A DNA stretch of 27,780 bases from a virus, in IMG/VR virus record IMGVR_UViG_3300047356_000512, positions 1-27,780 of that record; one strand, 5' to 3'. This document shows, piece by piece, positions 5,364 to 20,541 of the stretch (the stretch's first letter is position 1; every line of letters begins with the position of its first letter). The position numbers and the translations under genes were made by a program. The notes under the pieces are model-generated. The model was not told the DNA's origin. It ran no database searches and saw only the letters and a list, made by a program, of their open reading frames with translations.

Positions 5364-7160
5364 TTAGTTTTTAAATCCCATTTTTTTCCAATAAGCAGCT
5401 GTATAACCTTTATATTTCATATCTTTAGGGGCAACAGGTACTTTCTGTGCATTAGTTTCAGGCTTAAACCCTTTGCTTTTTGCTTCTGTTGTACTAATAA
5501 CATCGCCTAAACTTTTAGACCCCTCTTTACGTGCGTAGATACGTCTAAACCATTTGTGTTGACATCTCGCACCACCTTTGTATAGCCAAATAGAATAAGT
5601 ATCAGAACCACCCTTGCCAAACCCTGCATTGACAACTCTTGTTTCCATTGACTTAATATCCTCTTTACGATAGACCTTTTTAGCACTTATCATTTTATTG
5701 CAGAACTCTCGTGAGTTAGGACTTGTCTTTTGTGGGTTGTACATATATCTTACTAAAAATATAGTGTCCTCTTGACCCTTTTGTTTTGACTTACCATCTT
5801 GATCACTCTCGCTATAAGGCTTTGCACTTCCTGTACTTGCAAGTTCTACCTGCTCGTTTAGTTCCTTAATCTTTTGGTCTTGCTCGTCTTCTAATTCGTA
5901 GTCAACCTCCGCTTCGTCTATAAGGTCAAAGTCCTTTAATAGTTCTTCTTCATCTTGACCCAAGTCGATAAGCGCATCTGCTATCTCTGTGTCTATAAAT
6001 TTATCTACATCAGAACTCATTTTAACCCCTGTTTCTTCCTCACGTGTTTCAGAATCTTCTACGTTGTCAAGGTCGGTAAACTCTAAAGGTTGTAAGGTTT
6101 TAAAGTATAGATTAAGTGAGATATTGTTATACGCTAATATCTTGTCAAAGTTTTCTATTAGCAAACGCTGAAATGGTCTGATAACCGTATTGTCCATAAG
6201 GATAGTAGCTGTCTTTAACTCGTCTGCGTTGTTTCCAAGCCCTGTGTTGTCTTTAATTCCTAAAAGCATAGGACTTACTACCCTGTGCGAAACGAGTATC
6301 TTACGTGAACTCTCATCGCTTAAAAACTGATACTGATTGTGAGCATCGGATAGTTGTATTGGCTCGATTGTAGCAGCTGTTTCTGCATTGTCGTTAAACG
6401 ATAGTATAAACTTACCTGCGTTGCTTGACCCACTAAACTTTTCATAGATACGTCTTTCAATAAGTTCCCTTTGTTCAGGGTCAGGTGTACCATTGTTCAT
6501 ATTGATAAGCATAGATGGGGCTAACCCATTCATTATGTTGTTTAAATGGTAGTTGCTTATCTCTTCCTCTAACTCTGCGTATTGTGTACCACCTTGATAG
6601 TCAACAGGGGAATAATACTTAAATCCTGCACGATAAGGCTTGATGTAAAGGATTTCTAACCCCTCTTTTGAATAACCAAACGCAGGTATTCTTTTAAGGT
6701 CATCAGAACGCTTGTATTTAGCCCAATCGTAATGGTAAAAGTAGGCTTCTATTTCGCCTTTGTCGTTGCACTTCTCTGCTCTTAATGTTTCAACAGGTAT
6801 GTGTTCAAGTTTTACAATCTTACTTCTATCCTTTGAGTAGATAACTTGCAAAGCACATTGACCCATAAGTTTTAGATCGTACACTACCTTTCTTGTGCAA
6901 TCAGGTGTGAATAAGGTCATCATTTGTGCATAAGCATCAGGCTTACGGTTAGAATCAGTAGCATCCAATCCCTTACCATAAATCATCTCGCTTATACCAT
7001 TTATGATAGCGTTGTTTGTTGGGCTTCCGTTGTATCTGTCTATAAGATATTGAAAGTAGTTGTTGTCATCCCCATAAGACACAAACTCCTGACCCTTTAC
7101 TTCCTTTACGGATGGGCTTGTGTATGTGCTTAAATTGACAATCCTTAAATCGTTGTTCAT
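5364..7160 (-). CDS. Portal protein with fused C-terminal domain
   Basis: The 598-aa product has a portal core (about 1-370): early SYGDDNNYFQYLIDRYNGSP, the conserved DRSKIVKLEHIPVETLR, and LVSHRVVSPMLLGIKDNTGLGNNADEL. Portals form the dodecameric DNA entry ring. An acidic linker (about 365-465) leads to an extra module (about 466-542) with SREFCNKM, VNAGFGKGG, YSIWLYKGGARCQHKW, a Cys/His-bearing block that in other phages accompanies head-associated proteins. The start is an ATGA overlap. The portal lies far from the terminase genes. Confidence 0.82.
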   Translation of the reverse strand: MNNDLRIVNLSTYTSPSVKEVKGQEFVSYGDDNNYFQYLIDRYNGSPTNNAIINGISEMIYGKGLDATDSNRKPDAYAQMMTLFTPDCTRKVVYDLKLMGQCALQVIYSKDRSKIVKLEHIPVETLRAEKCNDKGEIEAYFYHYDWAKYKRSDDLKRIPAFGYSKEGLEILYIKPYRAGFKYYSPVDYQGGTQYAELEEEISNYHLNNIMNGLAPSMLINMNNGTPDPEQRELIERRIYEKFSGSSNAGKFILSFNDNAETAATIEPIQLSDAHNQYQFLSDESSRKILVSHRVVSPMLLGIKDNTGLGNNADELKTATILMDNTVIRPFQRLLIENFDKILAYNNISLNLYFKTLQPLEFTDLDNVEDSETREEETGVKMSSDVDKFIDTEIADALIDLGQDEEELLKDFDLIDEAEVDYELEDEQDQKIKELNEQVELASTGSAKPYSESDQDGKSKQKGQEDTIFLVRYMYNPQKTSPNSREFCNKMISAKKVYRKEDIKSMETRVVNAGFGKGGSDTYSIWLYKGGARCQHKWFRRIYARKEGSKSLGDVISTTEAKSKGFKPETNAQKVPVAPKDMKYKGYTAAYWKKMGFKN

Positions 7161-7652: not shown

Positions 7653-7678
7653 TATATCGTATAAAGTTTAAATTTTGC
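7653..7678 (-). promoter_or_regulatory. Late promoter-like element, copy before 7647 gene
   Basis: Minus strand GCAAA (7678-7674), 14 nt, CGATATA (7659-7653), then 5 nt to the ATG. Block sequence and both spacings match those before the scaffold and protease genes. It lies just downstream of a terminator, as expected for a new transcript start. If CGATATA is a -10 region the mRNA would be nearly leaderless. Confidence 0.6.
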
Positions 7679-7680
7679 GT

Positions 7681-7707
7681 AAAAGAAAAGGGGGCATAAA
7701 ACCCCCT
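7681..7707 (-). terminator. Rho-independent terminator after tail tube candidate gene
   Basis: Minus strand AGGGGG, 7-nt loop, CCCCCT, followed by TTTTCTTTT. It lies about 70 nt after the stop of the 173-aa structural gene and directly before the GCAAA/CGATATA element. Confidence 0.82.
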
Positions 7708-7775
7708 CAACTAACTTAACCTCAAAATGAAAAAACTTCTTCGCTAATATACTAATTAGTTACTAAACCTACAAA

Positions 7776-8297
7776 TTAGGGAGTAGGGTTAATAGGGGAA
7801 GAAGAATCATCAGTTGGTAGTGTAGCCACAAAGAATGGTGGTGCAGTTTCCTGCGCTGTAAGAGTAAGCGTAAACCCACTCAAATCCCCCATAGCAGCAC
7901 CTGTAACAACAGTACCACCTGTTACTTCCGCACCGTGATCTTTACCAACCAAGAAGCCATTGCCATTGTAATCTTCTACTACAATCTGTGGTCTTCCGTG
8001 TGCTAAAAGTTTAATCTGCTCTTGTGTTGCTACATCTAAAAATGTAAATGTTACGTTCAAAGTTGATTCATAAAAGGTAGTACCATTTTCTCTCGAGGAG
8101 TTGATGGCAGTTTCCAAAGATGAATTGCCTTTGATTTCGTATTTGTAGAAAGATACGCTATCATCCAAAGTGATTGTACCACTACTATCCGTAAGGGCAG
8201 CTGTGGTAGTTGTATAGGGGGCAAAATAGATATTTTTCAGACCACCTACCGCACTTTTGCAAGGTAACGCTCTTCCGTTTGAAACTGAACAAGCCAT
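7776..8297 (-). CDS. Tail tube-like major structural protein candidate
   Basis: The 173-aa product begins MACSVSNGRALPCKSAVGG, followed by a beta-rich body (YKYEIKGNSSLETAINSSRE, YESTLNVTFTFLDVATQEQIKLLAHG, VVEDYNGNGFLVGKDHGAEVTGG) and a Pro/Ser/Thr-rich end. This layout is common to putative tail tube proteins of flavobacterial siphophages. An in-frame ATG 11 codons earlier lies inside the preceding terminator stem, so the ATG at 8297 is chosen. It is a single gene bounded by terminators, fitting a highly expressed virion protein. Confidence 0.65.
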   Translation of the reverse strand: MACSVSNGRALPCKSAVGGLKNIYFAPYTTTTAALTDSSGTITLDDSVSFYKYEIKGNSSLETAINSSRENGTTFYESTLNVTFTFLDVATQEQIKLLAHGRPQIVVEDYNGNGFLVGKDHGAEVTGGTVVTGAAMGDLSGFTLTLTAQETAPPFFVATLPTDDSSSPINPTP

Positions 8298-8310
8298 AGT
8301 TTTATAAATT

Positions 8311-8346
8311 AAAAAAGGGTAGGTAGGCACATCGGCTTACCCACCC
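8311..8346 (-). terminator. Rho-independent terminator after major capsid gene
   Basis: Minus strand GGGTGGGTAAGC and GCCTACCTACCC pair over 12 positions (one mismatch, one G-T) around a 6-nt loop, followed by six T. It lies 25 nt after the capsid gene stop. Confidence 0.83.
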
Positions 8347-8370
8347 CTTTATTGTTAGACATTTGATTTA

Positions 8371-9294
8371 TTACGAGTAAAGAACGATGTCAGAACCAAT
8401 ACCAAACTGAACACCTGCTGTATAGCGCATTACTACACGAACATTTTGTGAACCATCAATATCAGCCATATCAATTACTTTAACTTCGTTTCTGTCATCA
8501 AGCAATCCTGTACCGAAGAACAAGTTTGATTTTTGAGCAGCTACCGCAGTGTTGTCAGCAAGTCCTTTAGCTACGAAGATGTTGATACCCTCGAAAGACA
8601 ACTGACCACCGTTGTACCATTGTGTACCTTTGTTATCTACACCGTTAGCACCGATAGTAGCAACAAATCCACCCAAAGCACGTACATAAGCACGAGCGAT
8701 GTTAGAAGATACATAAAGTGTCAAATCTTCTTTTCCATAAACCGCAGATGGGATAGCATCAACGATAGCACCTAATTGTGCAATTACGTTAGAAGAATCA
8801 ACAGATACAGCAGTAACGTCATTTACAGTTCCATCAGCAAGTAAAAGAGTTTCAAAGCCATCGAAAGAACCTTCGCCTGCACTACCTGACCAAATAGAAG
8901 TTTCGGTTGCGTTGGCTACTTCAGCAGCTACACGTGCGATAACATAGTCAGAGAATAATGGGGGTAGTTCATCAAAAGCAGAGAATCCCATTTGAGCAGC
9001 TTCCCAATCTGCGTGAAGTTCTTTCTTACAGATTTGTAGGTTTACTTGCAACTCGGTAGGAGTTAATACTTTTTCAGTCAATGTAAGACCTGATGTAGTA
9101 GCATCAAAATCGCAATCAGCAGAACGAACAAGGTTGCTCATAGTTCCTACTTTCATAGCGGCTTTGTACTTTACATTAGGTAGAATAGAGATAGCACCTT
9201 GGTCAAGGGTATCTGCACTCAATAGGGCAGCACCTAAATACTTCCCTGCAAATTCGCCCGCATAAGTCGAGCTTGTAATAGTTGGATTAGCCAT
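8371..9294 (-). CDS. Major capsid protein (HK97 fold)
   Basis: The 307-aa product has the layout of Bacteroidota phage capsid proteins: MANPTITSSTYAGEFAGKYL start, LPNVKYKAAMKVGTM, the DFDATTSGLTLTEKVLTPTEL block, the helix ELHADWEAAQMGFSAFDELP, and a C-terminal end VRVVMRYTAGVQFGIGSDIVLYS. It forms the icosahedral shell. It follows the acidic scaffold gene by 11 nt and is followed by a strong terminator. There is no long N-terminal delta domain, consistent with a separate scaffold. Confidence 0.88.
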   Translation of the reverse strand: MANPTITSSTYAGEFAGKYLGAALLSADTLDQGAISILPNVKYKAAMKVGTMSNLVRSADCDFDATTSGLTLTEKVLTPTELQVNLQICKKELHADWEAAQMGFSAFDELPPLFSDYVIARVAAEVANATETSIWSGSAGEGSFDGFETLLLADGTVNDVTAVSVDSSNVIAQLGAIVDAIPSAVYGKEDLTLYVSSNIARAYVRALGGFVATIGANGVDNKGTQWYNGGQLSFEGINIFVAKGLADNTAVAAQKSNLFFGTGLLDDRNEVKVIDMADIDGSQNVRVVMRYTAGVQFGIGSDIVLYS

Positions 9295-9305
9295 TTTCTA
9301 AATAT

Positions 9306-9920
9306 TTAGTTGTTTAATAATTTCTGCATTACTTTATCTAAAGAGTTGCGTTGTCTGTTTTGTGCATACTTTAGATTTACTTTTTGTTTTGGTTCAGGAT
9401 TGTGTGAGATAGGCTCGGCAGCAGGAGTTTCGGATAGTTCCTCTTTTACCTGTGCTTCCACTTCACTCATTTCTTCCTTTTTGTCAATCATAGCTTTAAT
9501 TTCTTCAAGCATAGATTTAACCTCTGCCAACTCTTCTTTGGTGGCATACTCGGCTTCTACCTCTTCCGCAGCTTCTACCTCAACTTCTTCGGTATTTTCT
9601 ACTTCTGATGCTTCAACCTCTTCTTCTACTTCCTCTTCAACCGCTTCTTTGATTTCAGCAATCAATCCCTCTTCTGCAACAACTAAAACCATACCATCTT
9701 CCAAAGTGTATTCGCCTACGGGAAGTGCTACCTTTTCGTCATCTGTTAGAATAAAGACCTCTTGACCTGCTTCAAAAGATTCAGCTTCGAGTACTGTTCC
9801 GTTTTCAAGGGTCATTTGAGCCAACTTGACTTCTTGATTCTGCTCGATGTTCTCAACGATGTCGGCAGTATCTTCCCCTAAAAACGTCTTAATCTTGTTT
9901 AACATTTCAGTCGCTTTCAT
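9306..9920 (-). CDS. Acidic head scaffold-like protein
   Basis: The 204-aa product has an N-terminal small beta domain (residues about 30-85, TLENGTVLEAESFEAGQEVF). A very acidic Glu/Val stretch follows (about 91-124, VEEEVEEEVEASEVE), then a coiled coil (about 127-165) and a basic C-terminus (KQKVNLKYAQNRQRNSLDKVMQKLL). Scaffold proteins commonly end in a basic capsid-binding helix. It is placed directly before the capsid gene and after the protease, and has its own GCAAA/CGATATA element. Confidence 0.75.
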   Translation of the reverse strand: MKATEMLNKIKTFLGEDTADIVENIEQNQEVKLAQMTLENGTVLEAESFEAGQEVFILTDDEKVALPVGEYTLEDGMVLVVAEEGLIAEIKEAVEEEVEEEVEASEVENTEEVEVEAAEEVEAEYATKEELAEVKSMLEEIKAMIDKKEEMSEVEAQVKEELSETPAAEPISHNPEPKQKVNLKYAQNRQRNSLDKVMQKLLNN

Positions 9921-9925
9921 AATTA

Positions 9926-9951
9926 TATATCGGATTTAAAATTTACTTTGC
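9926..9951 (-). promoter_or_regulatory. Late promoter-like element before scaffold gene
   Basis: Minus strand GCAAA (9951-9947), 14 nt, CGATATA (9932-9926), 5 nt, ATG. It fits in the 35-nt gap between genes. The flanks also match the protease copy: both read AATGCAAA upstream and share a T/A-rich spacer. Confidence 0.62.
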
Positions 9952-9955
9952 ATTT

Positions 9956-10096
9956 TTATACTTTACCTATGCCTTGCGCCCTTAAAGAACCATCACAGCA
10001 TTTGACAGAATAAGTGTTGTCCTTACACAAACAACCACGTCTTGACCCTTTAGGGCTTGTCTTTGATGGTGTAAAGAAGTTCTTTAGTTTTCTCAT
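9956..10096 (-). CDS. Small cysteine-rich head-region protein
   Basis: The 46-aa product is basic at the N-terminus (MRKLKNFFTPSKTSPKGSRRG), then CLCKDNTYSVKCCDGSLRAQGIG with two pairs of cysteines (CLC, CC) that could bind zinc. I recognise this motif from short unnamed proteins in flavobacterial phage head modules. The ATG overlaps the upstream stop (ATGA). Role unknown; possibly a small head or cement component. Confidence 0.7.
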   Translation of the reverse strand: MRKLKNFFTPSKTSPKGSRRGCLCKDNTYSVKCCDGSLRAQGIGKV

Positions 10097-10227
10097 TTGC
10101 CTTGTCCTCTGTATTTCTTTTTATAGTTCTTTGAGCCTTTTACACTACTCATTTTTGTTTTAGCGTGGATGCCCTTTCTTCGTATCTTGGGCTTTTCCAC
10201 TTTTATACTTTCTATTCTTTTAGCCAT
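10093..10227 (-). CDS. Small basic head-region protein
   Basis: The 44-aa product is highly basic (MAKRIESIKVEKPKIRRKG start, KGSKNYKKKYRGQGK end) and has no hydrophobic core, suggesting nucleic-acid or acidic-scaffold contact. Similar short proteins occur next to capsid genes in Bacteroidota phages. It overlaps the protease stop by 8 nt and the next gene by ATGA. Confidence 0.7.
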   Translation of the reverse strand: MAKRIESIKVEKPKIRRKGIHAKTKMSSVKGSKNYKKKYRGQGK

Positions 10228-11410
10228 CGATAGGTATGCAATTTGGTACTAACTTTCCGTTCTTACGTTTCATTCCGTATTGTCTATAACCTGCGGTGCA
10301 AGGCTTTTCAAGTTTGTGTTGTTCGCAAGGCATATACCACACCTTACCCTCAAACTCGTGTTCGTGAAACTTATCACACCCTATGTCCTTTGCAGCCTGT
10401 ATAGCGAGTTCTTTGGTTGCGTATGCAAGTCGGTCATCTATAATAGCCATTGTGTCATTGATCACTTCACTTGCCAACTCTAAAACACCTAATTCTTTTA
10501 ACTTACTCTCTGACCAACGCTTGGCAGCCTTACCACCCCACAATAAGTAGGATATAGTACCACACGCTTTGGTATCGCTTTCATCGTAATATTCCTCTGC
10601 TCTTGATAGGTAGGAGTACATCCTCTTAATCGTTTCTTCGCTTACAGGCTTACCTTGTGCAAGTTGTTGCGCACGTACCTTACCCACTTGGGTAGCGCAT
10701 TTGTTGTTTACCGCTTCGTTGAGTTCTAACCCACGTTTAGCGTTGTTCTTAACCGCATCAGGATAGTCAGAGTAAGATTCTAATTCCTCTTTCTTACCAT
10801 CCTTATACCTACCATCTTGCTTTACGATTCTGCGGATATGTTTCAACATATCTTTAGCTTCCTCTTCCTCGATGTCGTTTAAGGTGTTGTCTTTTGGTCT
10901 TTCCATTTTGTCGGCAAAGTACCCTTCAATCGAAAATCCTTTAACCTTGCCTGTTTTTACAAACTCTTCCCATATTTGGTCGTTGTTTACTTTTACCGCA
11001 CCCATCCAAGTTCCCACAGGTACATTTAGTCCGTACTTTCGGCTTTTGTCCTGTACTTCGTCTTCTACTATCCAAGATTCTACAAGTGTTAGTCCGTTAA
11101 TCGAATGTTGATGTTCCAAAGTCGCTTTGCTTTGGTTTCCGTTCATAAGATATAATTGCGATGCTCTTTCTACTGTACTTTTAGAAAAGTATATATAGTA
11201 CTCTTCATCGCCCTTACGTCTGTAAATGGGTTTGTTGGGAATAAGTAAAGCACCGAGTAAGATTCGCTTCTCGTTAGATACCTCTGCGAGTTTGATCTCT
11301 TCGTTTTTAAGTGCTATAAAATCTTCCTCTATTGCAGGGTTCTCAACTACCGAAATAGCTTCGATTCCCATAACTTGCTCATCGTCTAATACAAGTTCAA
11401 TGATTTTCAT
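10220..11410 (-). CDS. XkdF-type prohead protease
   Basis: The 396-aa product has an N-terminal protease domain (about 1-170) of the XkdF/Peptidase_S78_2 type: SVVENPAIEEDFIAL, ALLIPNKPIYR, LEHQH (98-102, putative catalytic His), VESWIVED and GFSIEG (158-163, putative catalytic Ser160). A central helical domain (about 205-310, NAKRGLELNEAVNNKCATQ, ACGTISYLLWGG) and a Cys/His-containing end (KFHEHEFEGKVWYMPCEQH) follow. It would mature the prohead. It precedes the scaffold and capsid genes and has its own GCAAA/CGATATA element. Confidence 0.82.
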   Translation of the reverse strand: MKIIELVLDDEQVMGIEAISVVENPAIEEDFIALKNEEIKLAEVSNEKRILLGALLIPNKPIYRRKGDEEYYIYFSKSTVERASQLYLMNGNQSKATLEHQHSINGLTLVESWIVEDEVQDKSRKYGLNVPVGTWMGAVKVNNDQIWEEFVKTGKVKGFSIEGYFADKMERPKDNTLNDIEEEEAKDMLKHIRRIVKQDGRYKDGKKEELESYSDYPDAVKNNAKRGLELNEAVNNKCATQVGKVRAQQLAQGKPVSEETIKRMYSYLSRAEEYYDESDTKACGTISYLLWGGKAAKRWSESKLKELGVLELASEVINDTMAIIDDRLAYATKELAIQAAKDIGCDKFHEHEFEGKVWYMPCEQHKLEKPCTAGYRQYGMKRKNGKLVPNCIPIDG

Positions 11411-11415
11411 ATAAG

Positions 11416-11441
11416 TATATCGTTAAAGTTTTACATTTTGC
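11416..11441 (-). promoter_or_regulatory. Late promoter-like element before protease gene
   Basis: Minus strand GCAAA (11441-11437), 14 nt, CGATATA (11422-11416), 5 nt, ATG. It exactly fills the gap between the tape measure stop (11444) and the protease start, so no coding constraint explains its sequence. Confidence 0.65.
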
Positions 11442-11443
11442 AT

Positions 11444-13183
11444 TTACCCAAGAGAAGCACCCTTAACGATGTTTCTATCGAGTTCTTGTGCGGTACTAAC
11501 GTCATTCGATACCACATAAGCCCTTACAGGTTCTTGTGATTGACCACCTATTGCTTCGGCTAACTGACTTGTACCACCTGCACCTACTATGTTAAAAGCA
11601 GGGGGTGTAGAACCTACCGCAGTTCTTGGGGCGGATATATTTGGAGCAGAACCCCCACCTGCACCTAAAGAAGCAGCAACTCCTTTTGATTTACCCACCG
11701 CTTGTGATACAGCACTTACAATTCCAACCGCTTGTAATGCATAAGCAATCAACATAGGTATATTTTGTGGGAAACCTACTTTAGCTGTTTGAGCAGTACC
11801 CTCTGCAACCGCAGCTGATGAACGTGCAGCTACTAAACTTGAAAACGTAAGTGTCTTTTTAGCTTCCGATATTAACTCTTGTGCTGCTAATACCTGCTTG
11901 GCTATAAGGGCTGCTTTACCTGCTGCTGTTTCAGCACCAAATAATGCTATGGCTTGGTCAACCGCTTGTCTTTTAGCATTTATACGTCTTTGTTCAATTT
12001 CTATTTCAGATTTAGCAATTCTTTCATCTCTTGCTTTCTTATCCGCTTCCTCTTTAGCTTCTCTATCCGCCTTTTCTTTATCTAATTTATCTTGTCTTTC
12101 TTTATTGGCAGCATCTGTTTCATCTTGGATTCTTTTTTCTTCTGCACGTTGCTCGTTGATAAGGGCTATTGTTTGGGATGTTACCTCTTTCTGTTTAGAT
12201 AGCCTTGCAGTTTCTAACTGAATAAGATTAGCCTTTAATTGTGCTTCCTCGTCTAAATCTTCTTTAGTGGATTTACCTAAAGCGTTTTCTGCTTGTTTCG
12301 CTTCCAATCTTAACCTTGCAGCTTCTATCTCTTTTTGGGTTATTTCTTCTTCAAGCCTACCTGCTTCTTGTAAAAACTCAATTCTTTCTTGTGTTGTAAA
12401 TCTTTCCTTATCAACCGCCTTTTCTAAAAGTTCTGCTCTTTTACGGTCTGCTTCTGCTCTATCAACAAGCAACTTTCTTTCAACCTTATCAGCCTTTGCT
12501 CTTTGGTCTGCAATCTGACCTGCAATCTTTGCTTCTTCTGTCATCTCTTTAACAAGATTAGAAGTCGCTTTGGCTAAAGCTGTGGTTGCTATAACAGCAG
12601 GGTTTAGACCTTTATTTAGGTTGACAAACCCATCAGTAGCATCAGATAAAGCACCTTTGAAATCGCCTGTGAAAACTTTTTGTAATGCACTACCTAAAAG
12701 ACCTACACCCTCAAGTACATTGTTTATCCTATCGCTAACAAACGATGTTATACTTGCACCAAAATCCTTTAGTGATTGAATGGGGTTTGTGAAAACATTT
12801 ATTATGGATTCGCCTAAATTAGCAAGTCGGTCTAACAAAGCACCTGTGATAGCACCTATCATACTCATTAGCTTGGCAAACTTGTTTTGCCCCTCTTCTG
12901 ATCTTATAAATGCCTGTTGTAAAGAAACGATAGCCACAACTAAAGCACCAATCCCTGTTGCCATTACAGCAACCCTCAATGACTTAAAAGCTATCACTGC
13001 TTTTTTAACACCATTAACAACGCCTTTAAACCCACTAATAGCACCACCTGTAAATTTATCGGCACTTGCGCTTAAATCATCAAAGCTATCCTCTGTTTTT
13101 ACAACGGACTTATTTAGCTTCTCAATGTCAGCTTGGGCTTCCCCTGTTTTAACGTCTAATTCTATTGTTACTGTTTTAGCCAT
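11444..13183 (-). CDS. Tape measure protein
   Basis: The 579-aa product starts with the typical tape measure opening (VTIELDVKTGEAQADIEKLNK). It has hydrophobic segments near residues 66-90 (AFKSLRVAVMATGIGALVVAIVSL, split here by family convention) and 455-490, and a long Ala/Glu/Lys/Arg coiled coil (about 215-405). A Gly/Ser/Pro-rich end follows. Tape measure proteins set tail length and help DNA entry; this length suggests a tail of moderate size. It overlaps a 48-aa gene by 16 nt. Confidence 0.85.
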   Translation of the reverse strand: MAKTVTIELDVKTGEAQADIEKLNKSVVKTEDSFDDLSASADKFTGGAISGFKGVVNGVKKAVIAFKSLRVAVMATGIGALVVAIVSLQQAFIRSEEGQNKFAKLMSMIGAITGALLDRLANLGESIINVFTNPIQSLKDFGASITSFVSDRINNVLEGVGLLGSALQKVFTGDFKGALSDATDGFVNLNKGLNPAVIATTALAKATSNLVKEMTEEAKIAGQIADQRAKADKVERKLLVDRAEADRKRAELLEKAVDKERFTTQERIEFLQEAGRLEEEITQKEIEAARLRLEAKQAENALGKSTKEDLDEEAQLKANLIQLETARLSKQKEVTSQTIALINEQRAEEKRIQDETDAANKERQDKLDKEKADREAKEEADKKARDERIAKSEIEIEQRRINAKRQAVDQAIALFGAETAAGKAALIAKQVLAAQELISEAKKTLTFSSLVAARSSAAVAEGTAQTAKVGFPQNIPMLIAYALQAVGIVSAVSQAVGKSKGVAASLGAGGGSAPNISAPRTAVGSTPPAFNIVGAGGTSQLAEAIGGQSQEPVRAYVVSNDVSTAQELDRNIVKGASLG

Positions 13184-13314
13184 TTCATATCTCTTTTAAA
13201 TTGGTTAAATGCTTCTCTGAATGATTTGGGTAAATAGTTCTTGCCTTTGGCTATACGGATGTTTTCCGAGCCATCTTCTACATAGGGCAATAAATCTAAT
13301 ATATTTTTTATCAT
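13168..13314 (-). CDS. Small protein between tail protein and tape measure
   Basis: The 48-aa product (MIKNILDLLPYVEDGSENIR start, SFREAFNQFKRDMKWLKQ end) is helical and basic at the C-terminus. Its ATG overlaps the stop of the 786-aa tail gene (ATGA), and its end overlaps the tape measure start by 16 nt. The position suggests a tail-assembly helper. It is not recognised. Confidence 0.65.
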   Translation of the reverse strand: MIKNILDLLPYVEDGSENIRIAKGKNYLPKSFREAFNQFKRDMKWLKQ

Positions 13315-15671
13315 ACCTCGTTCAATAATTCTATGTTTGATTCGCCTGTCGCTAAATTGGTTTCTATGCTGTTTATCTTGTATCTCTGTCCGTTAATGTC
13401 GAACCTGTCTGCAAGTGTAAAGTTCAAAAGTATCTTCATAGGCAGATATGCCTTTACTTTTGTCAAACGTCTTTTAGTGCTAAACGCATCTGTTATGTAA
13501 GTGCGATAAAAATCCCTAAATAACGTATCATCAAATACTTCCCCTGCTTGTTCGTTTACCTCTGCAAAAAAGTTTATGTTTTCAGAACCTGTACCCACGT
13601 TTACAAATCCAATACTATTAGATGGCATATTTATATCCCCATCGAGTTCTATGTGATCGCCATAAATACCATCATCATCAATCGTTACAAAAGCTATTGA
13701 CACATCAGTACCACCTTTTTGTGGGTGTTCGTACACAGGGTAGAATAAAACAGGACTACCCTTTTGTGGGCTTTGGCTTTCATCTACACTCCAACCCCAT
13801 TGTAAGGTCATCTTGGTATTATCGTCAAGGTCGTATAGGTTTTCGTATTTTAAGTGTCCGAATGGCACTATAACATCATATACACCACCATCTACTTGGT
13901 TGTTATCATCATCTCTTTCGGTGTATTCTTCTTTTGCCCAAGCCTTGCCAAATAATTGTTCGTGTTGTACCGCTAAATACGTTTTGGTGTCCTCGTATGC
14001 AAAGTTTATTTCGCTATATGGTAAGGCAACATCTACTTGGGTTGTTTGTACGTCAACGTATTGGCTTATATCGTAAGCGGTAGATATAGATTTCTTGTCG
14101 GCATAGAAGTTATCTAAAGTGTCAACATATATCTTGCCATCGTCTTCCACAAGGGCAACCAAATTAAACATCTTAAACACACCTGTTAGAAAGTCAATCA
14201 CTTTCATTTCAGGTATCTGATTTGATGCTATAAATGTAAACGTAGTACCATCTGCTGTAAAGTTTCCAACGTCTGATGTGTTGAACGTGTCGGTTACGGT
14301 TATTCTTGACCTACAATTTGAATTACCACTACCAATAACAGCACAACTTTCGTGTCTAATACTCCACTCAATATCTGTGAATATTATACTTGATGTACTA
14401 TAAATAACTACGGTAAAATCCCCATTATCGTTTTCGTCAAAGTTAAATGTTTTTGTACCACTTGTTGCACTTAAATCTACATCTTCCTCAAAGTAGTATC
14501 TTACACCATTCCTTAACACTTCAAGGTCAAACAAAGAACTTGTGGCACTTGTAAGGGTTAATCTAAAATGCTTCCAATCATAAATAATTCTTGTACCCTC
14601 GTTTGTTTTAGAAAGCACGTTATTGCTCATTATACAAAACTCATAGTTACCTGTTTCATTATTCCAACCATCAACAGGGCTTGGGTTCTTTTGTAGCACC
14701 GTACCACTCTCTACCTTTCCACTTTTGCGATGCAACCACATATACAAATTAAACCAACGTGGGTTAGCTTCTTTGTTTAGGAAGTCATTACTAAAAGATA
14801 TATTAGAAGCATAGCCATTAGATGTAGTGTATTTGTGTTCTATGGCATCTATAATCTTTTGCGCTCTTACAGCGTATTTAAGTTCTTTCCAACTTACTCC
14901 GTGCTGATGCGCACCACCTGACCCACCGTGATACCAAAGGTTTCCTGTGCTACTACCTGATGCGGTGGTTTCGTAAAACAATCTTTTGGTGTTGGTTATA
15001 AGAGGGCAGATAACGTGATTGCTTATTTCGTATGTATCGCCTACTGTTTGAAAAATATCATCTGCCAAACTTAAAACAGTACTTGTTGGTATAAACACAA
15101 CTGTTGTACTTTGGTTTGTTGTTACGTTATAAACTTGATCGCCTACCGAAACACCTGTGGTACTTGGTACTATTAAACTATTTGATGAAACCGTAGTTAC
15201 CGTACCTGTGTCAAAGTTAGAACTACTTAACTCTAAAAGGTCTTGTACTTGCGTAGCACTATATTCTTGATCAAAAGGGCTTAAATCTAAAGAACTTAAT
15301 TTGTCATCGCCTATTATGTCTTTTAAGTCAACTGTGTTTCCGTAGAATGTTACTTTGTACATATAAGCCTTACCACTCTTTAACTCTACACCATCAAGTT
15401 TGATTTTACCTTTTTTAAATGGTAAGTAATTAAGTTCTATTGTCGCTGACTTTTTAGACCTTGCATCAAACCCACCCTCTATGTCAAAATTGTAGTAGTG
15501 TTCAAATATCTTGTTGTTGGTTTTAGATGCAGGTAGAGTAAATGTCTTTGTGAACTCGGTAAATATCTTTGCAACGTCTTTTACGTTCTTAATAGATTGT
15601 GTGATGCTTACGGATTCATCCTTAAACATATCTACCAACTGACCTTGTATGTAAAGCTGTATGCTCTGCAC
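13311..15671 (-). CDS. Large tail/baseplate hub-like protein
   Basis: The 786-aa product opens QSIQLYIQGQLVDMFKDE and has IKNVKDVAKIFTEFTKTFTLPASKTNNKIF, a block I associate with large tail proteins of Bacteroidota phages. It is beta-rich throughout, with EMKVIDFLTGVFKMFNLVALVEDDGKIYVDTLDNFY near the middle. It is probably a tail-tip or baseplate component. The start is GTG, overlapping the upstream stop as TAGTG; no better in-frame ATG is near. No lysozyme or peptidase motif is obvious. Confidence 0.7.
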   Translation of the reverse strand: MQSIQLYIQGQLVDMFKDESVSITQSIKNVKDVAKIFTEFTKTFTLPASKTNNKIFEHYYNFDIEGGFDARSKKSATIELNYLPFKKGKIKLDGVELKSGKAYMYKVTFYGNTVDLKDIIGDDKLSSLDLSPFDQEYSATQVQDLLELSSSNFDTGTVTTVSSNSLIVPSTTGVSVGDQVYNVTTNQSTTVVFIPTSTVLSLADDIFQTVGDTYEISNHVICPLITNTKRLFYETTASGSSTGNLWYHGGSGGAHQHGVSWKELKYAVRAQKIIDAIEHKYTTSNGYASNISFSNDFLNKEANPRWFNLYMWLHRKSGKVESGTVLQKNPSPVDGWNNETGNYEFCIMSNNVLSKTNEGTRIIYDWKHFRLTLTSATSSLFDLEVLRNGVRYYFEEDVDLSATSGTKTFNFDENDNGDFTVVIYSTSSIIFTDIEWSIRHESCAVIGSGNSNCRSRITVTDTFNTSDVGNFTADGTTFTFIASNQIPEMKVIDFLTGVFKMFNLVALVEDDGKIYVDTLDNFYADKKSISTAYDISQYVDVQTTQVDVALPYSEINFAYEDTKTYLAVQHEQLFGKAWAKEEYTERDDDNNQVDGGVYDVIVPFGHLKYENLYDLDDNTKMTLQWGWSVDESQSPQKGSPVLFYPVYEHPQKGGTDVSIAFVTIDDDGIYGDHIELDGDINMPSNSIGFVNVGTGSENINFFAEVNEQAGEVFDDTLFRDFYRTYITDAFSTKRRLTKVKAYLPMKILLNFTLADRFDINGQRYKINSIETNLATGESNIELLNEV

Positions 15672-16816
15672 TATCTTATGTTGTTTATTTTGTCAAATGC
15701 GTTTTCAAACTCAATCGTATAGTTTACAAGTTTATCGTTTACACTTGTCTTATAAGTTACCGTTTTGGTACGTGGTATAACAGGTACAACTAATTCCTCG
15801 TCTGTGATTTTAGTGTACCATACTTGCTCACTTAATAATAATTCTTCTATAACCGCATTGTGATCGTCATTAACGTACCCTGTGTTCATTGTTATTCTAT
15901 CCTTACCTTGTGTCATAAAGGATTGTTGTTGGTGTTGGTAGGTCTTATAGCCGAATGTCGCTTGGTCAAATATAGAAGCCTTAAACTGCTCGGAAGTAAC
16001 GTCTGTGGTTTCTACTGATTTCTTAAAGAACCAAAGGTCTTGCAACGCACCATATTTGTTTACGAATGTTACTTTGTATGGCTCGTACTTGCACTCGTCA
16101 ACTGTGTTTATTTTAAGTATGTCTACACCTGCATCTGTGGCAACCAACACTTCATCTACAAGCCCTATGTCAATGGTGTTTAAAAAGTCGGTAAGACACC
16201 CTGACACTTCCAAAGTACCACCATCAGCTACAACTCTTTCCTCGTAGGTGTCTGTGTTATCAGAACCACTTACAGTAACATAATCTATTTGTCCGTTAGT
16301 GTTTGTAGAATCGCTTATAGTAAGTGTACGTTTTAAAGTACCTTGATAATAAAAAGCTACGCTATTGGTGTCTTCGGTAAATACAGGAATCCTTACGTTT
16401 GAATCGTTTAGCCTAAAGATACTTCTATTCGACATCAGTAGCCCTCTTGATAGTTCAGGATTCTTACCCTCGTGAAAATACCCATAGCCATCCATAGCAA
16501 CATAATCGTATTCTAAAGGGCTACCTATAATAATACCTGATGAATCAAGGTTAATTACTTGTGCTTCTACCCACACACATTGGCTATCATACTCCCCATC
16601 AAACTCTATCTCTATATAATCTCTTATAAGTTCTGCAACCTCAAATACTACGTAGTTATTAGAATTTAAAGTGTACTTTGTTAAGCTATATGTAAAGTCC
16701 GTAGGTTTATCTGTTGTAAATTCGCCTGTGTATATCCATAATCGACAAACACACTCGGCTAACCCTGTGGCTGTTGCTTTTATGTAATAGGGGCTTCTTA
16801 CGTTTATCTTTTCCAT
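15671..16816 (-). CDS. Tail structural protein, unnamed
   Basis: The 381-aa product (MEKINVRSPYYIKATATGLAE start) is beta-rich with repeated Thr/Val strands and a conserved-looking region KVTFVNKYGALQDLWFFKKSVE. It resembles tail proteins that precede the large hub-like gene in Bacteroidota phages. Its ATG overlaps the stop of the upstream gene. No enzymatic motif is visible. Confidence 0.68.
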   Translation of the reverse strand: MEKINVRSPYYIKATATGLAECVCRLWIYTGEFTTDKPTDFTYSLTKYTLNSNNYVVFEVAELIRDYIEIEFDGEYDSQCVWVEAQVINLDSSGIIIGSPLEYDYVAMDGYGYFHEGKNPELSRGLLMSNRSIFRLNDSNVRIPVFTEDTNSVAFYYQGTLKRTLTISDSTNTNGQIDYVTVSGSDNTDTYEERVVADGGTLEVSGCLTDFLNTIDIGLVDEVLVATDAGVDILKINTVDECKYEPYKVTFVNKYGALQDLWFFKKSVETTDVTSEQFKASIFDQATFGYKTYQHQQQSFMTQGKDRITMNTGYVNDDHNAVIEELLLSEQVWYTKITDEELVVPVIPRTKTVTYKTSVNDKLVNYTIEFENAFDKINNIR

Positions 16817-17307
16817 TAGTTAAATGCGTTTTGTAGGTCTATTCCAAATTTTTCTTGTAGTTCTTGTGGTAGTCGTTCAAAGGCTCTTTCAAAAGGTTTG
16901 GTAAAAAACAAACTTGGCTTGATGCCTTTAGTATATACGCTTCGTGCTATAATATATTGCAAACTCTTACGTTTTATAAATCTACCCTTTTCATCTCGTA
17001 TGCCTTTTAGTCCTTTCCTAACAACCCAATCGCTAAATGCTTTTGCAGGGGGCATTTTGTCTTTGTATGAATAAGGTGTGTTGTACTTCTTCTTAACACC
17101 ACTAACACCCAAATCCTGAAACTTACCATAATCTTCCATAGAGAAAATAACAGACAAGTCATTAGCACCTACGTTGACTTGATACTCTATACTATCGTAA
17201 AGTCGTTTAGATGCGTTCTTTTTGCCTTTAGTTAGGTTGGTTCTTGATTGCTGAACCACGTACTTACCAAAGTCATTAAGTGCTTTCTGTGTTTCCTTTA
17301 GCTGCAT
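16816..17307 (-). CDS. HK97 gp10-like head-tail joining/tail completion protein
   Basis: The 163-aa product has an N-terminal helix (MQLKETQKALNDFGKYVV), KGKKNASKRLYDSIEYQV, VIFSMEDYGKFQDLGVSG and a Lys/Arg-rich middle followed by FFTKPFERAFERLPQEL. This helix/strand/strand order with DYGKFQDLGVSG resembles HK97 gp10-type proteins that complete tails or join heads. It overlaps the preceding gene by 10 nt. The family call is from pattern recognition. Confidence 0.65.
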   Translation of the reverse strand: MQLKETQKALNDFGKYVVQQSRTNLTKGKKNASKRLYDSIEYQVNVGANDLSVIFSMEDYGKFQDLGVSGVKKKYNTPYSYKDKMPPAKAFSDWVVRKGLKGIRDEKGRFIKRKSLQYIIARSVYTKGIKPSLFFTKPFERAFERLPQELQEKFGIDLQNAFN

Positions 17308-17771
17308 ACGTTAATATCGTTTTCTATGATCACATCAAAGCTACAAGCCCATCCTGCTACTTGGTGTTCAAATCTATCGGTAAATGGCTCACAAGTAGGA
17401 CTACCCTCTAATTGGTATTTATCCCTATATAGAGTTCCTATCCTTAACTTCTGTACAAGTTTGTTTACAACTGATAGTTGAGTGTTTAAGACATCGTGTT
17501 CGTTATTGTTACCCCTGAATATGTCGGTTGTTGCTTCCTTGCTTTGTTCTACTATGTCCATAGATAAAACAGAGATACTAAAACGTAGTACCTGTTCCTC
17601 TACGGTTGCTTGGTTGATAATTATGTGGGATAATGGGTATATCGTTTGTTTAGACAAATCAATGTCTGTAATATCCCCTGTGGTTACCGTGTTTACAAAG
17701 TCGTTACTTAATAACTCGTCTTTGATTGTTTCAGTTATTTGGTAGAACCCCCTTATACCTTGATTAGCCAT
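17298..17771 (-). CDS. Tail terminator/minor tail protein candidate
   Basis: The 157-aa product begins MANQGIRGFYQITETIKDEL and has TIYPLSHIIINQATVEEQ, LRFSISVLSMDIV and a C-terminal GWACSFDVIIENDIN, a pattern I know from phage tail-completion proteins of Bacteroidota. Position between the tail chaperone and gp10-like gene fits. Its ATG overlaps by 8 nt the stop of the -1 frame extension of the chaperone gene, not the chaperone's own stop. Confidence 0.65.
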   Translation of the reverse strand: MANQGIRGFYQITETIKDELLSNDFVNTVTTGDITDIDLSKQTIYPLSHIIINQATVEEQVLRFSISVLSMDIVEQSKEATTDIFRGNNNEHDVLNTQLSVVNKLVQKLRIGTLYRDKYQLEGSPTCEPFTDRFEHQVAGWACSFDVIIENDINVCS

Positions 17772-18018
17772 TGAATTGCTTTTTTATATTTCTTGCTTCC
17801 ATTTCAGCTTTGTCTTTCATAAAACTTAACGCATACAAACATTGATGTACACCTAATTTAGTGATATTTTCAAATCGTCTAATATCCCCTTTAGCGAGTG
17901 CGAAAAGTGATTGATACCAACCCCATTTTCTTCCGAAATTAGATACTGCGCTAAACTCGTTTCCTTGCTCTCCAAAGAGTTCAGCATAGTTCTCGATAAG
18001 TCCATCCCTAAATTGTAA
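17764..18018 (-). CDS. -1 frame extension of tail assembly chaperone
   Basis: Read one base back from the chaperone frame, this stretch is open for 84 codons. It encodes FGRKWGWYQSLFALAKGDI, RRFENITKLGVHQCLYALSF and a basic helical end MKDKAEMEARNIKKQFNG. The FG-K/R-KWGWYQS block is one I recognise from the C-terminus of intact single-frame homologues. It stops 8 nt inside the next gene, closing the only gap in the tail operon. Slipping at the T run would give a fused protein of about 245 aa. A missing or extra T in the assembly is the alternative explanation. Confidence 0.65.
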   Translation of the reverse strand, partial: LQFRDGLIENYAELFGEQGNEFSAVSNFGRKWGWYQSLFALAKGDIRRFENITKLGVHQCLYALSFMKDKAEMEARNIKKQFNG

Positions 18019-18500
18019 AAAAAAAGTATAGAACCTAACACTGCGTTCATTGGCATACCTTTCATTTGTTCAACCGAATCTACTTGGTATTCTTCGATAG
18101 CGTACTTATCGCCATATTGGTCTGTTACAGGTCGGTAGAGAACATTCATAGCACGGTGCATATTATCCCAATCGCCCATAAACGTATCAAGATCTATGTA
18201 TTCGCCAAAGGTCATATCCTCTAACTTGGGTATGAATCCGTATTGCTTACCTTTCATCTTGAACTGCGTTACTAACTTTGGTGTGTCGTTTAGCATATCG
18301 GTTAGGATGTTTACAATAGATTGTATGTCGGTGGCTCTCATCATTAGTACGTGATCGCCCCTTAACCCACAAAATATCTCAATCATCTTTACAGCTAAAA
18401 ATTTCTCGTCTTTGTTCTCATTCTGTATCTTTAGATACTTCTGATATTGCTCTAAAGTTACCTCTGCAAGTGAATCAGGAATGTTTATGTCAACTTTCAT
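17853..18500 (-). CDS. Tail assembly chaperone, short frame
   Basis: The 215-aa product in the initiating frame (MKVDINIPDSLAEVTLEQYQ start, LEDMTFGEYIDLDTFMGDWD, MNVLYRPVTDQYGDKY, LGSILFFYNLG) resembles tail assembly chaperones placed upstream of tape measure genes. Such genes usually make a short protein plus a longer frameshifted one. After a run of nine T at codons 159-162, the -1 frame looks more protein-like than this frame and continues past this stop. It follows a terminator and carries a CTAAA/CGATATA element 5 nt before its ATG. Confidence 0.75.
   Translation of the reverse strand: MKVDINIPDSLAEVTLEQYQKYLKIQNENKDEKFLAVKMIEIFCGLRGDHVLMMRATDIQSIVNILTDMLNDTPKLVTQFKMKGKQYGFIPKLEDMTFGEYIDLDTFMGDWDNMHRAMNVLYRPVTDQYGDKYAIEEYQVDSVEQMKGMPMNAVLGSILFFYNLGMDLSRTMLNSLESKETSLAQYLISEENGVGINHFSHSLKGILDDLKISLN
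18017..18026 (-). other. Candidate -1 slippery site (C then T9)
   Basis: On the minus strand the chaperone gene reads CTT TTT TTT TAC. The T TTT TTT heptamer satisfies the X XXY YYZ rule for -1 slippage, with full re-pairing of both tRNAs. It is the longest T run in this gene and lies just before the point where the -1 frame becomes protein-like. Confidence 0.55.
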
Positions 18501-18505
18501 ATATA

Positions 18506-18531
18506 TATATCGTAAAAAAAATAAGTTTTAG
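18506..18531 (-). promoter_or_regulatory. Late promoter-like element before tail chaperone gene
   Basis: Minus strand CTAAA (18531-18527), 14 nt, CGATATA (18512-18506), 5 nt, ATG. The upstream block deviates from GCAAA, but spacing is identical to the other copies. It lies just downstream of a strong terminator, so a transcript start is needed here. Confidence 0.55.
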
Positions 18532-18547
18532 AAAGTTAAAGATAAGC

Positions 18548-18572
18548 AAAAAAAAAGCCCCTCGAAAGGGGC
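18548..18572 (-). terminator. Rho-independent terminator with TTCG loop
   Basis: Minus strand GCCCCT-TTCG-AGGGGC followed by nine T. It is a perfect 6-bp stem with a stable UUCG tetraloop. It starts 6 nt after the stop of the 42-aa gene and isolates the small cassette 18964-18579 from the tail operon. Confidence 0.92.
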
Positions 18573-18578
18573 ATCGTA

Positions 18579-18707
18579 CTATTTGTTGTTGAGTTGCATC
18601 TTTAAGTACGTTATCTCACGTAATAGAGTGTCCTTGTCGTATATCTGAAACTCTTTGATGGTTTCTTCGTGTAACATATCGTACTCCATTTTCTTTAGTA
18701 AATCCAT
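18579..18707 (-). CDS. Small coiled-coil-like protein of the accessory cassette
   Basis: The 42-aa product (MDLLKKMEYDMLHEETIKEF, then DKDTLLREITYLKMQLNNK) is charged and helical with a heptad-like C-terminal half. It is not recognised. It lies 17 nt after the 79-aa gene and immediately before a strong terminator, forming a two-gene unit. Confidence 0.65.
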   Translation of the reverse strand: MDLLKKMEYDMLHEETIKEFQIYDKDTLLREITYLKMQLNNK

Positions 18708-18724
18708 AATGTTTGTTTTTTGTT

Positions 18725-18964
18725 TTAGAGTTTAAACCACGATTTGAAATCAGCCACTATTAGGTGTTTTGTATCATCATTTAAAAGACCCTTCTTATTG
18801 ATAGCTTGATGAATAATTAAAGCAGATTTAGGAATCCATTTATAGTTATCTTTATTACCAATCCACTTACCGTTATTGATAGCAACGCAAATAGCTTTTT
18901 CAGTAACTCTTATGACACTTCCATAATCTTGTAAATAATCTCCTATTTTAAATTGATGATGCAT
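18725..18964 (-). CDS. Small SH3/KOW-like protein of the accessory cassette
   Basis: The 79-aa product begins MHHQFKIGDYLQDYGSVIRV and continues with short strands (KAICVAINNGKWIG, YKWIPKSALII), resembling a small beta-barrel of the SH3/KOW type, then a helical basic end. I do not recognise a named family. It has its own host-type promoter overlapped by an inverted repeat, and lies between terL and the tail operon, so it is probably expressed independently of the late genes. Confidence 0.68.
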   Translation of the reverse strand: MHHQFKIGDYLQDYGSVIRVTEKAICVAINNGKWIGNKDNYKWIPKSALIIHQAINKKGLLNDDTKHLIVADFKSWFKL

Positions 18965-18970
18965 AATTGT

Positions 18971-18996
18971 TATCTTTTAATTATGGTGTAAAGATA
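18971..18996. promoter_or_regulatory. Operator-like inverted repeat over the -7 box
   Basis: TATCTTT and AAAGATA form perfect 7-bp arms separated by 12 nt. One arm coincides with the -7 element and the other lies in the leader, 7 nt before the start codon. This is the usual geometry of a repressor operator, or of a leader hairpin masking the start. Confidence 0.45.
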
Positions 18997-19019
18997 CAAC
19001 CTTTTTAGTTATACACAAA
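18989..19019 (-). promoter_or_regulatory. Bacteroidota-type promoter for the accessory cassette
   Basis: Minus strand TTTG (19019-19016), exactly 19 nt, then TATCTTTA (18996-18989), one base off the -7 consensus TAnnTTTG. It sits in the only gap between terL and the 79-aa gene. Confidence 0.7.
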
Positions 19020-19035
19020 TTATTTAATAACTTTT

Positions 19036-20244
19036 TTACCTAATAGCGTATTTACCTCTGTTGGGGTTCTGTAATTGAAACCCTACTGCATAGCGTACTG
19101 CATCGATTAAATGGTTGTAAGCATCTATCGGAGTGTTGGATTTTCTTTCCAACCAACAGTAGTTATTTAGTTCTTTGATTAAGTTCAATGAATCAGGGCT
19201 TACTACAAGATCATAATCTTGCAATAGTGATATGCCATACGTTACACTACCTTGTCCTTTGATTGATGGCTTTACGTTGCATCCTTTAGCTCGTATCTCG
19301 CTTATTAAACGTGGCTCTGCTGAATCCCCCACGATAAGCCCATTTTTAGCGTGTTTAAGGTTGAGGTGCGCTATCTCTGATGTGGTAAGTCGTGGAAGAT
19401 AAAAACATTCCCTTAAATAGATTATTTTGTTGTCTGTGTCTATGTTACTTTCTACGAGTGTACTTGGGTCTGATGCGAACCCATAATCTTGTCCAAAGAT
19501 GCTAACCCCTACGTGCTTGAACTCGCCTATTGTCCAATTATCAAATATCACACCCTCTGCCTTGTTAAGCCACCCACCTAATATCTGATGCTTGTACTTT
19601 TCAGGTCTTCTTTGTTTCATTTGCTCTATCTGATGTAAGTAGCTATCGGATAGGTTGTCTAAATTGTCCTCGTATGTAGTGTGTATATATGTGGTGTTTT
19701 CTTTTGTTGTATTGCTACCCTCTTGCACACCTCTATCCTCAAAGAATCGTTTGTAGATAAAGTGTTCCTTTGTTGTTGGGTTTAGTATAAGTATTACCCT
19801 GTTCTCTTTGGCTTGTGAACGTACAGATAGGTCTATGGTGTCAAACTTTTCTTCGTCTGTTAGTTCCTCTGCTTCATCTACTACCCACGTGGTTATTCCT
19901 GTAAGGGATTTAAGGTTTGCTGTTTGGTCGCCTGAACTTGTTTTGATTCCCCTAAAGATAATCTTGCTTCCTGTACGTCTGTTTATTATCTCGTCTTTGG
20001 TTATGTGAAAATCGCCTATAACACCCAATAGTTCTAACTTCTCTATAAATTCAGGTATAATAGATATGTAAGCCGATGTGAGTGTGTAGCGTGTAAATAG
20101 TATTGTGTGTCCTTGCTCGTATGTAAGTAATACAAGCATAAGGTTCACAGCAAAGGACTTACCTGAACCCCTACCACCTGTAATTACAAAGTACCTACTA
20201 TCGTCAGCTTGTAATGGTGCATACTTTGGATGTATGGCTATCAC
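19036..20244 (-). CDS. terL: Terminase large subunit
   Basis: The 402-aa product has the two-domain packaging motor layout. The ATPase has Walker A GGRGSGKS (23-30), Walker B VVDEAEE (121-127) and motif III LILNPTT (about 152-158). The RNase H-like nuclease has acidic residues in GQDYGF (Asp253), VGDSAEP (Asp307) and HLIDAVRYA (Asp381). It resembles the PBSX-type terminases. The GTG start overlaps the small subunit stop (GTGA). Length is slightly short for the family but all motifs are present. Confidence 0.95.
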   Translation of the reverse strand: MIAIHPKYAPLQADDSRYFVITGGRGSGKSFAVNLMLVLLTYEQGHTILFTRYTLTSAYISIIPEFIEKLELLGVIGDFHITKDEIINRRTGSKIIFRGIKTSSGDQTANLKSLTGITTWVVDEAEELTDEEKFDTIDLSVRSQAKENRVILILNPTTKEHFIYKRFFEDRGVQEGSNTTKENTTYIHTTYEDNLDNLSDSYLHQIEQMKQRRPEKYKHQILGGWLNKAEGVIFDNWTIGEFKHVGVSIFGQDYGFASDPSTLVESNIDTDNKIIYLRECFYLPRLTTSEIAHLNLKHAKNGLIVGDSAEPRLISEIRAKGCNVKPSIKGQGSVTYGISLLQDYDLVVSPDSLNLIKELNNYCWLERKSNTPIDAYNHLIDAVRYAVGFQLQNPNRGKYAIR

Positions 20245-20489
20245 TTGTACTTGATAATGTCTTTAAAATTGATATTAAAGCCCTCTGACGTAATATCTAC
20301 GCTTTCTTTAGGCTTACCATATCGGTAGCTTAAATATGTCTGTATGGCTCTTAAATCGCCTTTAGCAACGAGTTCCCCTAATTTAGACAAAGCAACATCT
20401 GAATCAATAATGTTGTCTAATCTTTCGATTAGCTTCTTTTCGTCTGCCTTTGGCTTTCTACCTGCGCCTTTTCTTGCTCCACCGTGCAT
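20241..20489 (-). CDS. terS: Terminase small subunit-like DNA-binding protein
   Basis: The 82-aa product opens with GGARKGAGRKPKADEKK, the GARxGAGRKP signature found at the start of many phage small terminases. A helical segment follows (LIERLDNIIDSDVALSKLGELV) ending in SYRYGKPKE. It would recognise packaging DNA and load terL. It is short compared with typical small terminases and directly precedes terL with a GTGA overlap. It is the first gene after a late promoter-like element. Confidence 0.82.
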   Translation of the reverse strand: MHGGARKGAGRKPKADEKKLIERLDNIIDSDVALSKLGELVAKGDLRAIQTYLSYRYGKPKESVDITSEGFNINFKDIIKYK

Positions 20490-20515
20490 CTTGATATATC
20501 TTGTTTATTCAATTA

Positions 20516-20541
20516 TATATCGTAATTATTCAGGATTTTGT
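20516..20541 (-). promoter_or_regulatory. Late promoter-like element before terS
   Basis: Minus strand ACAAA (20541-20537), 14 nt, CGATATA (20522-20516). Here the start codon is 27 nt rather than 5 nt downstream, so the element is not simply part of a start-codon context. That favours a promoter. It overlaps the last codons of the preceding 43-aa gene. Confidence 0.55.

Follow-up and report, generated by a model that had tools for sequence, protein, structure and literature searches.

The window analyzed here is the whole 27,780-base stretch of the phage record IMGVR_UViG_3300047356_000512, and it carries a two-block element, [C/T]AAA-N14-CGATATA, before five late genes. It was concluded, with a probability of about 85%, that these elements are late promoters read by a phage-encoded sigma factor resembling the extracytoplasmic function (ECF) type together with the host core RNA polymerase (RNAP), with transcription mostly starting at the ATG. 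As proposed, a gene of the early cluster (25724-26221) would encode a minimal ECF-like sigma consisting of sigma2, a linker, and sigma4, which would recruit the host core RNAP. Sigma4 would read the -35 block CAAA and sigma2 the -10 block CGATATA, and transcription would begin 6 nucleotides (nt) after CGATATA. At four promoters, +1 would coincide with the A of the ATG, placing the first gene of each of these units on a leaderless mRNA, and the fifth, that of terS, would give a leader of about 21 nt. A transcription start at +1, late timing, and leaderless translation would be expected accompaniments of this model. The candidate promoters are given below with their scores from a weight matrix that was trained on other phages only and then run over the window.

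20516..20541, minus strand: candidate late promoter P1 (terS), ACAAA-N14-CGATATA; predicted +1 is the G at 20510, with a 21-nt leader; score 31.5
18506..18531, minus strand: candidate late promoter P2 (215-aa tail gene), CTAAA-N14-CGATATA; predicted +1 is the A of the ATG at 18500; score 22.7
11416..11441, minus strand: candidate late promoter P3 (protease), GCAAA-N14-CGATATA; predicted +1 is the A of the ATG at 11410; score 13.9
9926..9951, minus strand: candidate late promoter P4 (scaffold-like gene, then major capsid protein), GCAAA-N14-CGATATA; predicted +1 is the A of the ATG at 9920; score 17.7
7653..7678, minus strand: candidate late promoter P5 (43-aa open reading frame, then neck, portal, and fibre genes), GCAAA-N14-CGATATA; predicted +1 is the A of the ATG at 7647; score 27.2

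The initial annotation, made from the letters of the window, had described five minus-strand copies with an exact CGATATA and [G/A/C][C/T]AAA exactly 14 nt upstream, and all five were found where it had placed them. The matrix ranked these sites first, and the next hit scored 8.0. The pattern [C/T]AAA-N14-CGATATA matched five times in the window, always on the late strand and never on the other. Equal frequency at random positions had been named in the initial annotation as a finding that would count against the motif; 400 second-order Markov sequences gave a mean of 0.13 matches and a maximum of 2. Five of the nine CGATATA occurrences in the window had [C/T]AAA at spacing 14, other spacings from 5 to 25 gave at most two, and the occurrences at 2382, 14067, 17638, and 21146 lacked the upstream block. 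CGATATA-N5-ATG was found four times, as had been claimed, and the same pattern read backwards was absent. The terS copy lay 26 nt before its ATG and not 27 nt as first reported. Terminator-like hairpins at 7708-7688 and 18572-18557 bore out the claim that two copies follow terminators, and the protease copy did fill its 33-nt intergenic gap (11443-11411). A degenerate sixth copy that had been suggested at the fibre start fell outside the top 11 matrix hits, and nothing like it preceded the fibre gene of the relatives; a sixth promoter at the fibre gene was rejected on these grounds. A scan of the window for E. coli-type sigma-70 promoters was uninformative (43 found, 40 expected).

The element was then sought in about 100 relatives, with a TerL scan returning 80 viral contigs at 76-99% identity. 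A search of related phages had been proposed beforehand, and it showed the two-block element before the same five late genes, namely those matching terS, the 215-aa tail gene, the protease, the scaffold, and the gene before portal. At the last of these, the P5-type promoter of the relatives directly preceded a homologue of the 123-aa gene. The shared element stood before late genes and not before early genes, and it was present in all 50 loci holding both the sigma gene and the 215-aa (P2) gene. In G001, G002, and G004, the matrix picked out five sites each, clearly separated from the lower hits; in G026, a chance match within the sigma gene outscored one poorly scoring terS site. One 53-kb relative (G030, loci L107-L109) consisted of two tandem, diverged units of the window phage type, both of which have a sigma gene and five promoters of their own. 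In the terS leader of the window (20515-20490) and of the relatives, TTGA(A/T)TAA(A/T)CAA-N7-TCAA stood just before terS, with its first part in 49 of 59 unique leaders, and a subgroup of relatives had TTCAGTTAACTAATTAAAAACTGA in its place. This conserved stretch may serve as an operator, in packaging, or as an element of the mRNA. A hairpin in the leader was also considered, but RNAalifold predicted no pairs.

The initial annotation had proposed the promoters without a partner protein, and the following open reading frame (ORF) was identified as the candidate.

25724..26221, minus strand: 165-aa ECF-like sigma factor with a TTG start, third gene of the early cluster; proposed recogniser of P1-P5

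The ORF contains a region-2-like stretch (AEDIVQEMY...YKQLRGLFVDLHRKE) and a C-terminal helix-turn-helix. Sigma70_r2 of Pfam was weakly matched in 19 of 23 family members (E<=1, best 2e-4). The AlphaFold model of the window protein (mean pLDDT, the per-residue confidence, 79) showed two helical domains joined by a floppy linker of low confidence. Its best Foldseek match in the PDB was M. tuberculosis SigE (E 2.9e-4), and the top 40 matches were mostly sigma factors, largely of the ECF type; the sigma4 domain matched 8jzt_C at 1.4 A over 58 columns. With 165 aa, sigma2 and sigma4 only, and a flexible linker, the protein has the composition of ECF sigmas, which span approximately 160-200 aa. Structure prediction thus gives the product a sigma fold, and we infer that it binds RNAP and reads the five-copy motif. 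The gene was present in all 12 records over 25 kb, the window included, and the eight family records lacking it were fragments of 11-24 kb. It lies in the early cluster, outside the late units. No late-type promoter was found upstream of it; thus, positive feedback is not suggested. No anti-sigma factor was obvious among the annotated neighbours, for which no systematic search was made. Searching named phages with tblastn gave no match to the window sigma at E<=0.01. In the bacterial genome collection, only one relative, 36% identical, was found (L196, JAUIFC010000146.1, a 9.7-kb contig in a Bacteroidia metagenome-assembled genome, probably a phage contig in the bin), and the host of the window phage was therefore not identified.

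The -10 block fell into four classes, namely CGATATA (class I), CGTTATA (class II, with a spacer of 14 in IIa and 15 in IIb), TTTATATATTA (class III), and CGTTAAT (class IV, in Nonlabens phage P12024L). Sites within a genome agreed in class; the exceptions were a single degenerate scaffold site of G001 and a small number of additional, ambiguous matches. In the sigma tree, class III and class IIb each formed one clade, and classes I and IIa interleaved, so that two changes were needed. The loci L007 (class I) and L016 (class IIa) were 97% identical in TerL and 84% identical in sigma, and their genomes, G001 and G004, differed by A against T at one -10 position in all five promoters. Four sigma positions separated class I from class II without exception. 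Among them was residue 64, which lies in the helix expected to face the -10 element; all four class I proteins have Q there, and the others T, V, I, C, or M. Between classes, the sigma4 recognition helix was 74-90% identical and the sigma2 helix 32-65%. The -35 block was constant across classes, from which a conserved sigma4 recognition helix would be predicted. Among these phages, the -10 class follows the phage sigma clade in a cis-trans correlation.

The distance from the element to the ATG was variable. Most sites of classes I and II stood 5 nt from the ATG, and the longer class III element left a gap of 2 nt. Displaced sites ahead of the 215-aa gene had 14-17 nt, and the terS distances spanned 23-39 nt. 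The block spacing was fixed within a genome, at 14 or, in one sigma clade, 15. At 72 unique sites without an ATG at the usual place, T was at -1 in 97% and A or G at +1 in 99%; where the ATG was in place, T was at -1 in 63 of 63 sites. A T at -1 with a purine at +1 is the usual bacterial initiator preference. Since this register was kept where no ATG was present, transcription from four promoters is predicted to begin at the A of the ATG, which would leave four of the five late mRNAs without a leader. The register is the strongest sequence evidence for the start site and the support on which the predicted start depends. The comparison of sites strongly supports promoters over translation elements, in line with the phage-specific late promoter giving nearly leaderless mRNAs that the initial annotation had offered as one of two readings.

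Its other reading, a start-codon-proximal translation element acting like a Kozak sequence or a ribosome-binding site, draws on the four copies exactly 5 nt before an ATG and on hosts that lack a Shine-Dalgarno sequence and use A(-3)/A(-6) (PMC6847099). It was judged highly improbable because the block spacing was kept when the ATG was displaced by 12-37 nt. The terS copies stand 26-39 nt from the ATG, and the displaced P2 copies keep both the spacing and the T/purine register without one. Moreover, the other ATG genes of these phages have A-rich starts with no trace of the two blocks, and terminators directly precede two of the copies. Slightly less probable still is a role of the repeated late-region copies as operators of a phage repressor or as packaging or replication sites. 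A phage-specific repeat of two blocks could be another kind of protein-binding site, but these copies have no palindromy, are strictly oriented, and are tied to late gene starts in a -35/-10 architecture with a T/purine initiator.

A promoter could also be read by a host sigma, either the primary sigma-A or a host ECF, aided by a phage activator, leaving the sigma-like ORF with another role. Host flavobacteria own several ECF sigmas, seven of them in F. psychrophilum (PMC9723704), and a 160-aa protein of the window (22146-22628) with a DnaA_C-like helix-turn-helix (Pfam E 5.5e-6, below the cut-off) could be the activator; an origin-binding or regulatory role is possible for it. This explanation was nevertheless considered unlikely. 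The primary sigma of Bacteroidota hosts uses the -7 element TAnnTTTG, which is probably also used by early phage genes, and the late elements read CGATATA and do not match it. In addition, the five -10 blocks change together between phages with 97% TerL identity, tracking the phage sigma clade, and the sigma gene is present in all long relatives.

Several observations weigh against the phage sigma as the reader of leaderless late promoters. The window sigma scored 14.5 bits against Sigma70_r2, below the cut-off of 24, and region 4 was only weakly recognised, with Sigma70_r4_2 matched in 4 of the 23 family members. Full-length TM-scores were low (0.3-0.4) because the inter-domain angle of the model is uncertain. 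Typical cellular ECF promoters have AAC, and the -35 block CAAA of the window lacks it. The -10 classes also track general phylogeny, so that the correlation with sigma partly reflects shared ancestry, and with only four class I sigmas available, three of them close kin, the residue-64 claim rests on few independent events. Finally, leaderless mRNAs are rare in the hosts, which makes leaderless translation here less expected: most F. johnsoniae transcripts are leadered, and leaderless or very short leaders account for 5.5% in F. psychrophilum and 3.7% in B. thetaiotaomicron.

The window (G+C 36.9%) belongs to a small, aquatic phage of the Bacteroidota type. Its two ends share at least 176 bases, with a single mismatch; the window is therefore terminally redundant, and the genome is probably complete. 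Nearly all genes are on the minus strand. A megablast search of named phages with the late region gave no match, the window contained no Rfam family and no tRNA, and no phage RNA polymerase was seen among the Pfam-scanned ORFs. The late genes and associated features were assigned as follows.

20241..20489, minus strand: terS, first gene under P1, adjoining TerL; family of unknown function
19036..20244, minus strand: terL, PBSX-type large terminase
18557..18572, minus strand: intrinsic-terminator-like hairpin directly before P2
17853..18500, minus strand: conserved 215-aa tail gene under P2, for which the label tail chaperone is plausible
10220..11410, minus strand: head protease (Peptidase_S78_2) under P3
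9306..9920, minus strand: scaffold-like gene under P4, second half of the protease-scaffold family phrog_24921; the label scaffold is plausible
8371..9294, minus strand: virion structural protein, probable major capsid, P4 unit
7688..7708, minus strand: intrinsic-terminator-like hairpin directly before P5
7516..7647, minus strand: 43-aa ORF under P5, no homologue found
5364..7160, minus strand: portal protein, P5 unit

A further terminator-like hairpin (8346-8321) lies directly after the capsid gene and ahead of the structural gene that follows; that gene lacks its own promoter and probably starts at the ATG near 8286. Close relatives keep this hairpin (GGGGTGGGTAAGCCGAGTGCCTACC), and it is perhaps a partial terminator setting capsid stoichiometry. 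Between terL and P2, a moron-like insertion (18557-18992) carries two small ORFs with a host-type promoter (TTGTGTATAAC...TATCTTTA); the relatives yielded no match to the 79-aa ORF and a single one to the 42-aa ORF. Approximately 130 bases of almost pure TATATTA-type repeat (1890-2020) lie upstream of a short ORF. Two DNA methyltransferase genes (21535-22149 and 26218-26841) with similar C-terminal stretches are present in this one small genome.

Taken more broadly, it is somewhat more probable than not that a phage ECF-like sigma shifts the entire structural programme to leaderless mRNAs across a widespread lineage of small aquatic Bacteroidota phages, and that the sigma and its five or six promoters have changed specificity together, repeatedly. 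If true, these phages would hold a natural record of sigma-promoter co-evolution and possibly of a late-stage shift to leaderless translation, with efficient leaderless translation predicted in a phylum where it is rare. The late-gene switch of an abundant, almost unstudied phage group would be assigned, and a candidate protein for it is named that the searched libraries list as unknown. Several naturally matched sigma/promoter pairs with single-base differences would allow testing how a minimal sigma reads the -10 element and how all promoters of one regulon change at once.

Literature searches, mostly outside subscription papers, returned no description of these late promoters. They were compared with isolates and related systems. 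Nonlabens phage P12024L (Inhavirus), with a TerL 55% identical, carries CAAA-N13/14-CGTTAAT-N4/5-ATG at six sites, which all lie on the late strand and precede late genes. Its gp35 corresponds in place to the window sigma, as a Sigma-70 region 2 gene just before terminase, and passes the Sigma70_r2 cut-off (25.2 bits against 24). However, this sigma is only 19% identical, and the -10 block is CGTTAAT. The P12024L record gives gp35 as no more than a hypothetical protein, with a note of Sigma-70 region 2, and lists no promoters. Riemerella phage RAP44, which has no sigma homologue, gave one chance-like match in 41 kb.

Bacteroidota primary-sigma promoters resemble the late elements in having about 12 nt from element to start, but their -7 sequence is unrelated and the hosts rarely make leaderless mRNA (3.7-5.5%). 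Cellular ECF sigmas (M. tuberculosis SigE and SigL, E. coli sigma-E) share the sigma2-linker-sigma4 fold, the size, and a -35/-10 promoter. With an ECF sigma, RNAP begins transcription 4-6 nt downstream of the -10 element and prefers a CG directly before that element (PMC6372665), and the same likeness is seen here, with a -10-to-start distance of 4 nt when the sequence is read as CG|ATATAT|AATT|ATG. They differ in that sequence similarity is very low, the -35 block of the window is CAAA, and the window sigma is part of a phage gene cluster.

Among phage sigmas, gp36 of Escherichia phage phiEco32 likewise redirects host RNAP to middle and late genes, with a start 6-8 bp after the element. Its promoter is a single element (tAATGTAtA) and the protein has no region-4 homology, whereas the window phage combines two blocks with a sigma4-like domain. 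The closest known system, taken by analogy as a working model, is Salmonella phage 7-11, in which SaPh711_gp47 (gp47) is a sigma with region 4 and bipartite late promoters, GTAAtg-(16)-aCTA, occur only before late genes (PMC8948821). The start lies 6-9 bp from the element, and host sigma drives the early genes (PMC8948821). The window phage likewise has bipartite candidate late promoters and a proposed sigma of its own with a sigma4-like domain. Phage 7-11 differs in being an enterobacterial podophage with another motif, and no sequence match to the window sigma was detectable among phage records. It also autoregulates its sigma through a late promoter, unlike the window sigma gene, and nothing on leaderless starts was found in the 7-11 paper (PMC8948821). 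Its authors predicted that phages hold further undescribed sigma/promoter pairs (PMC8948821).

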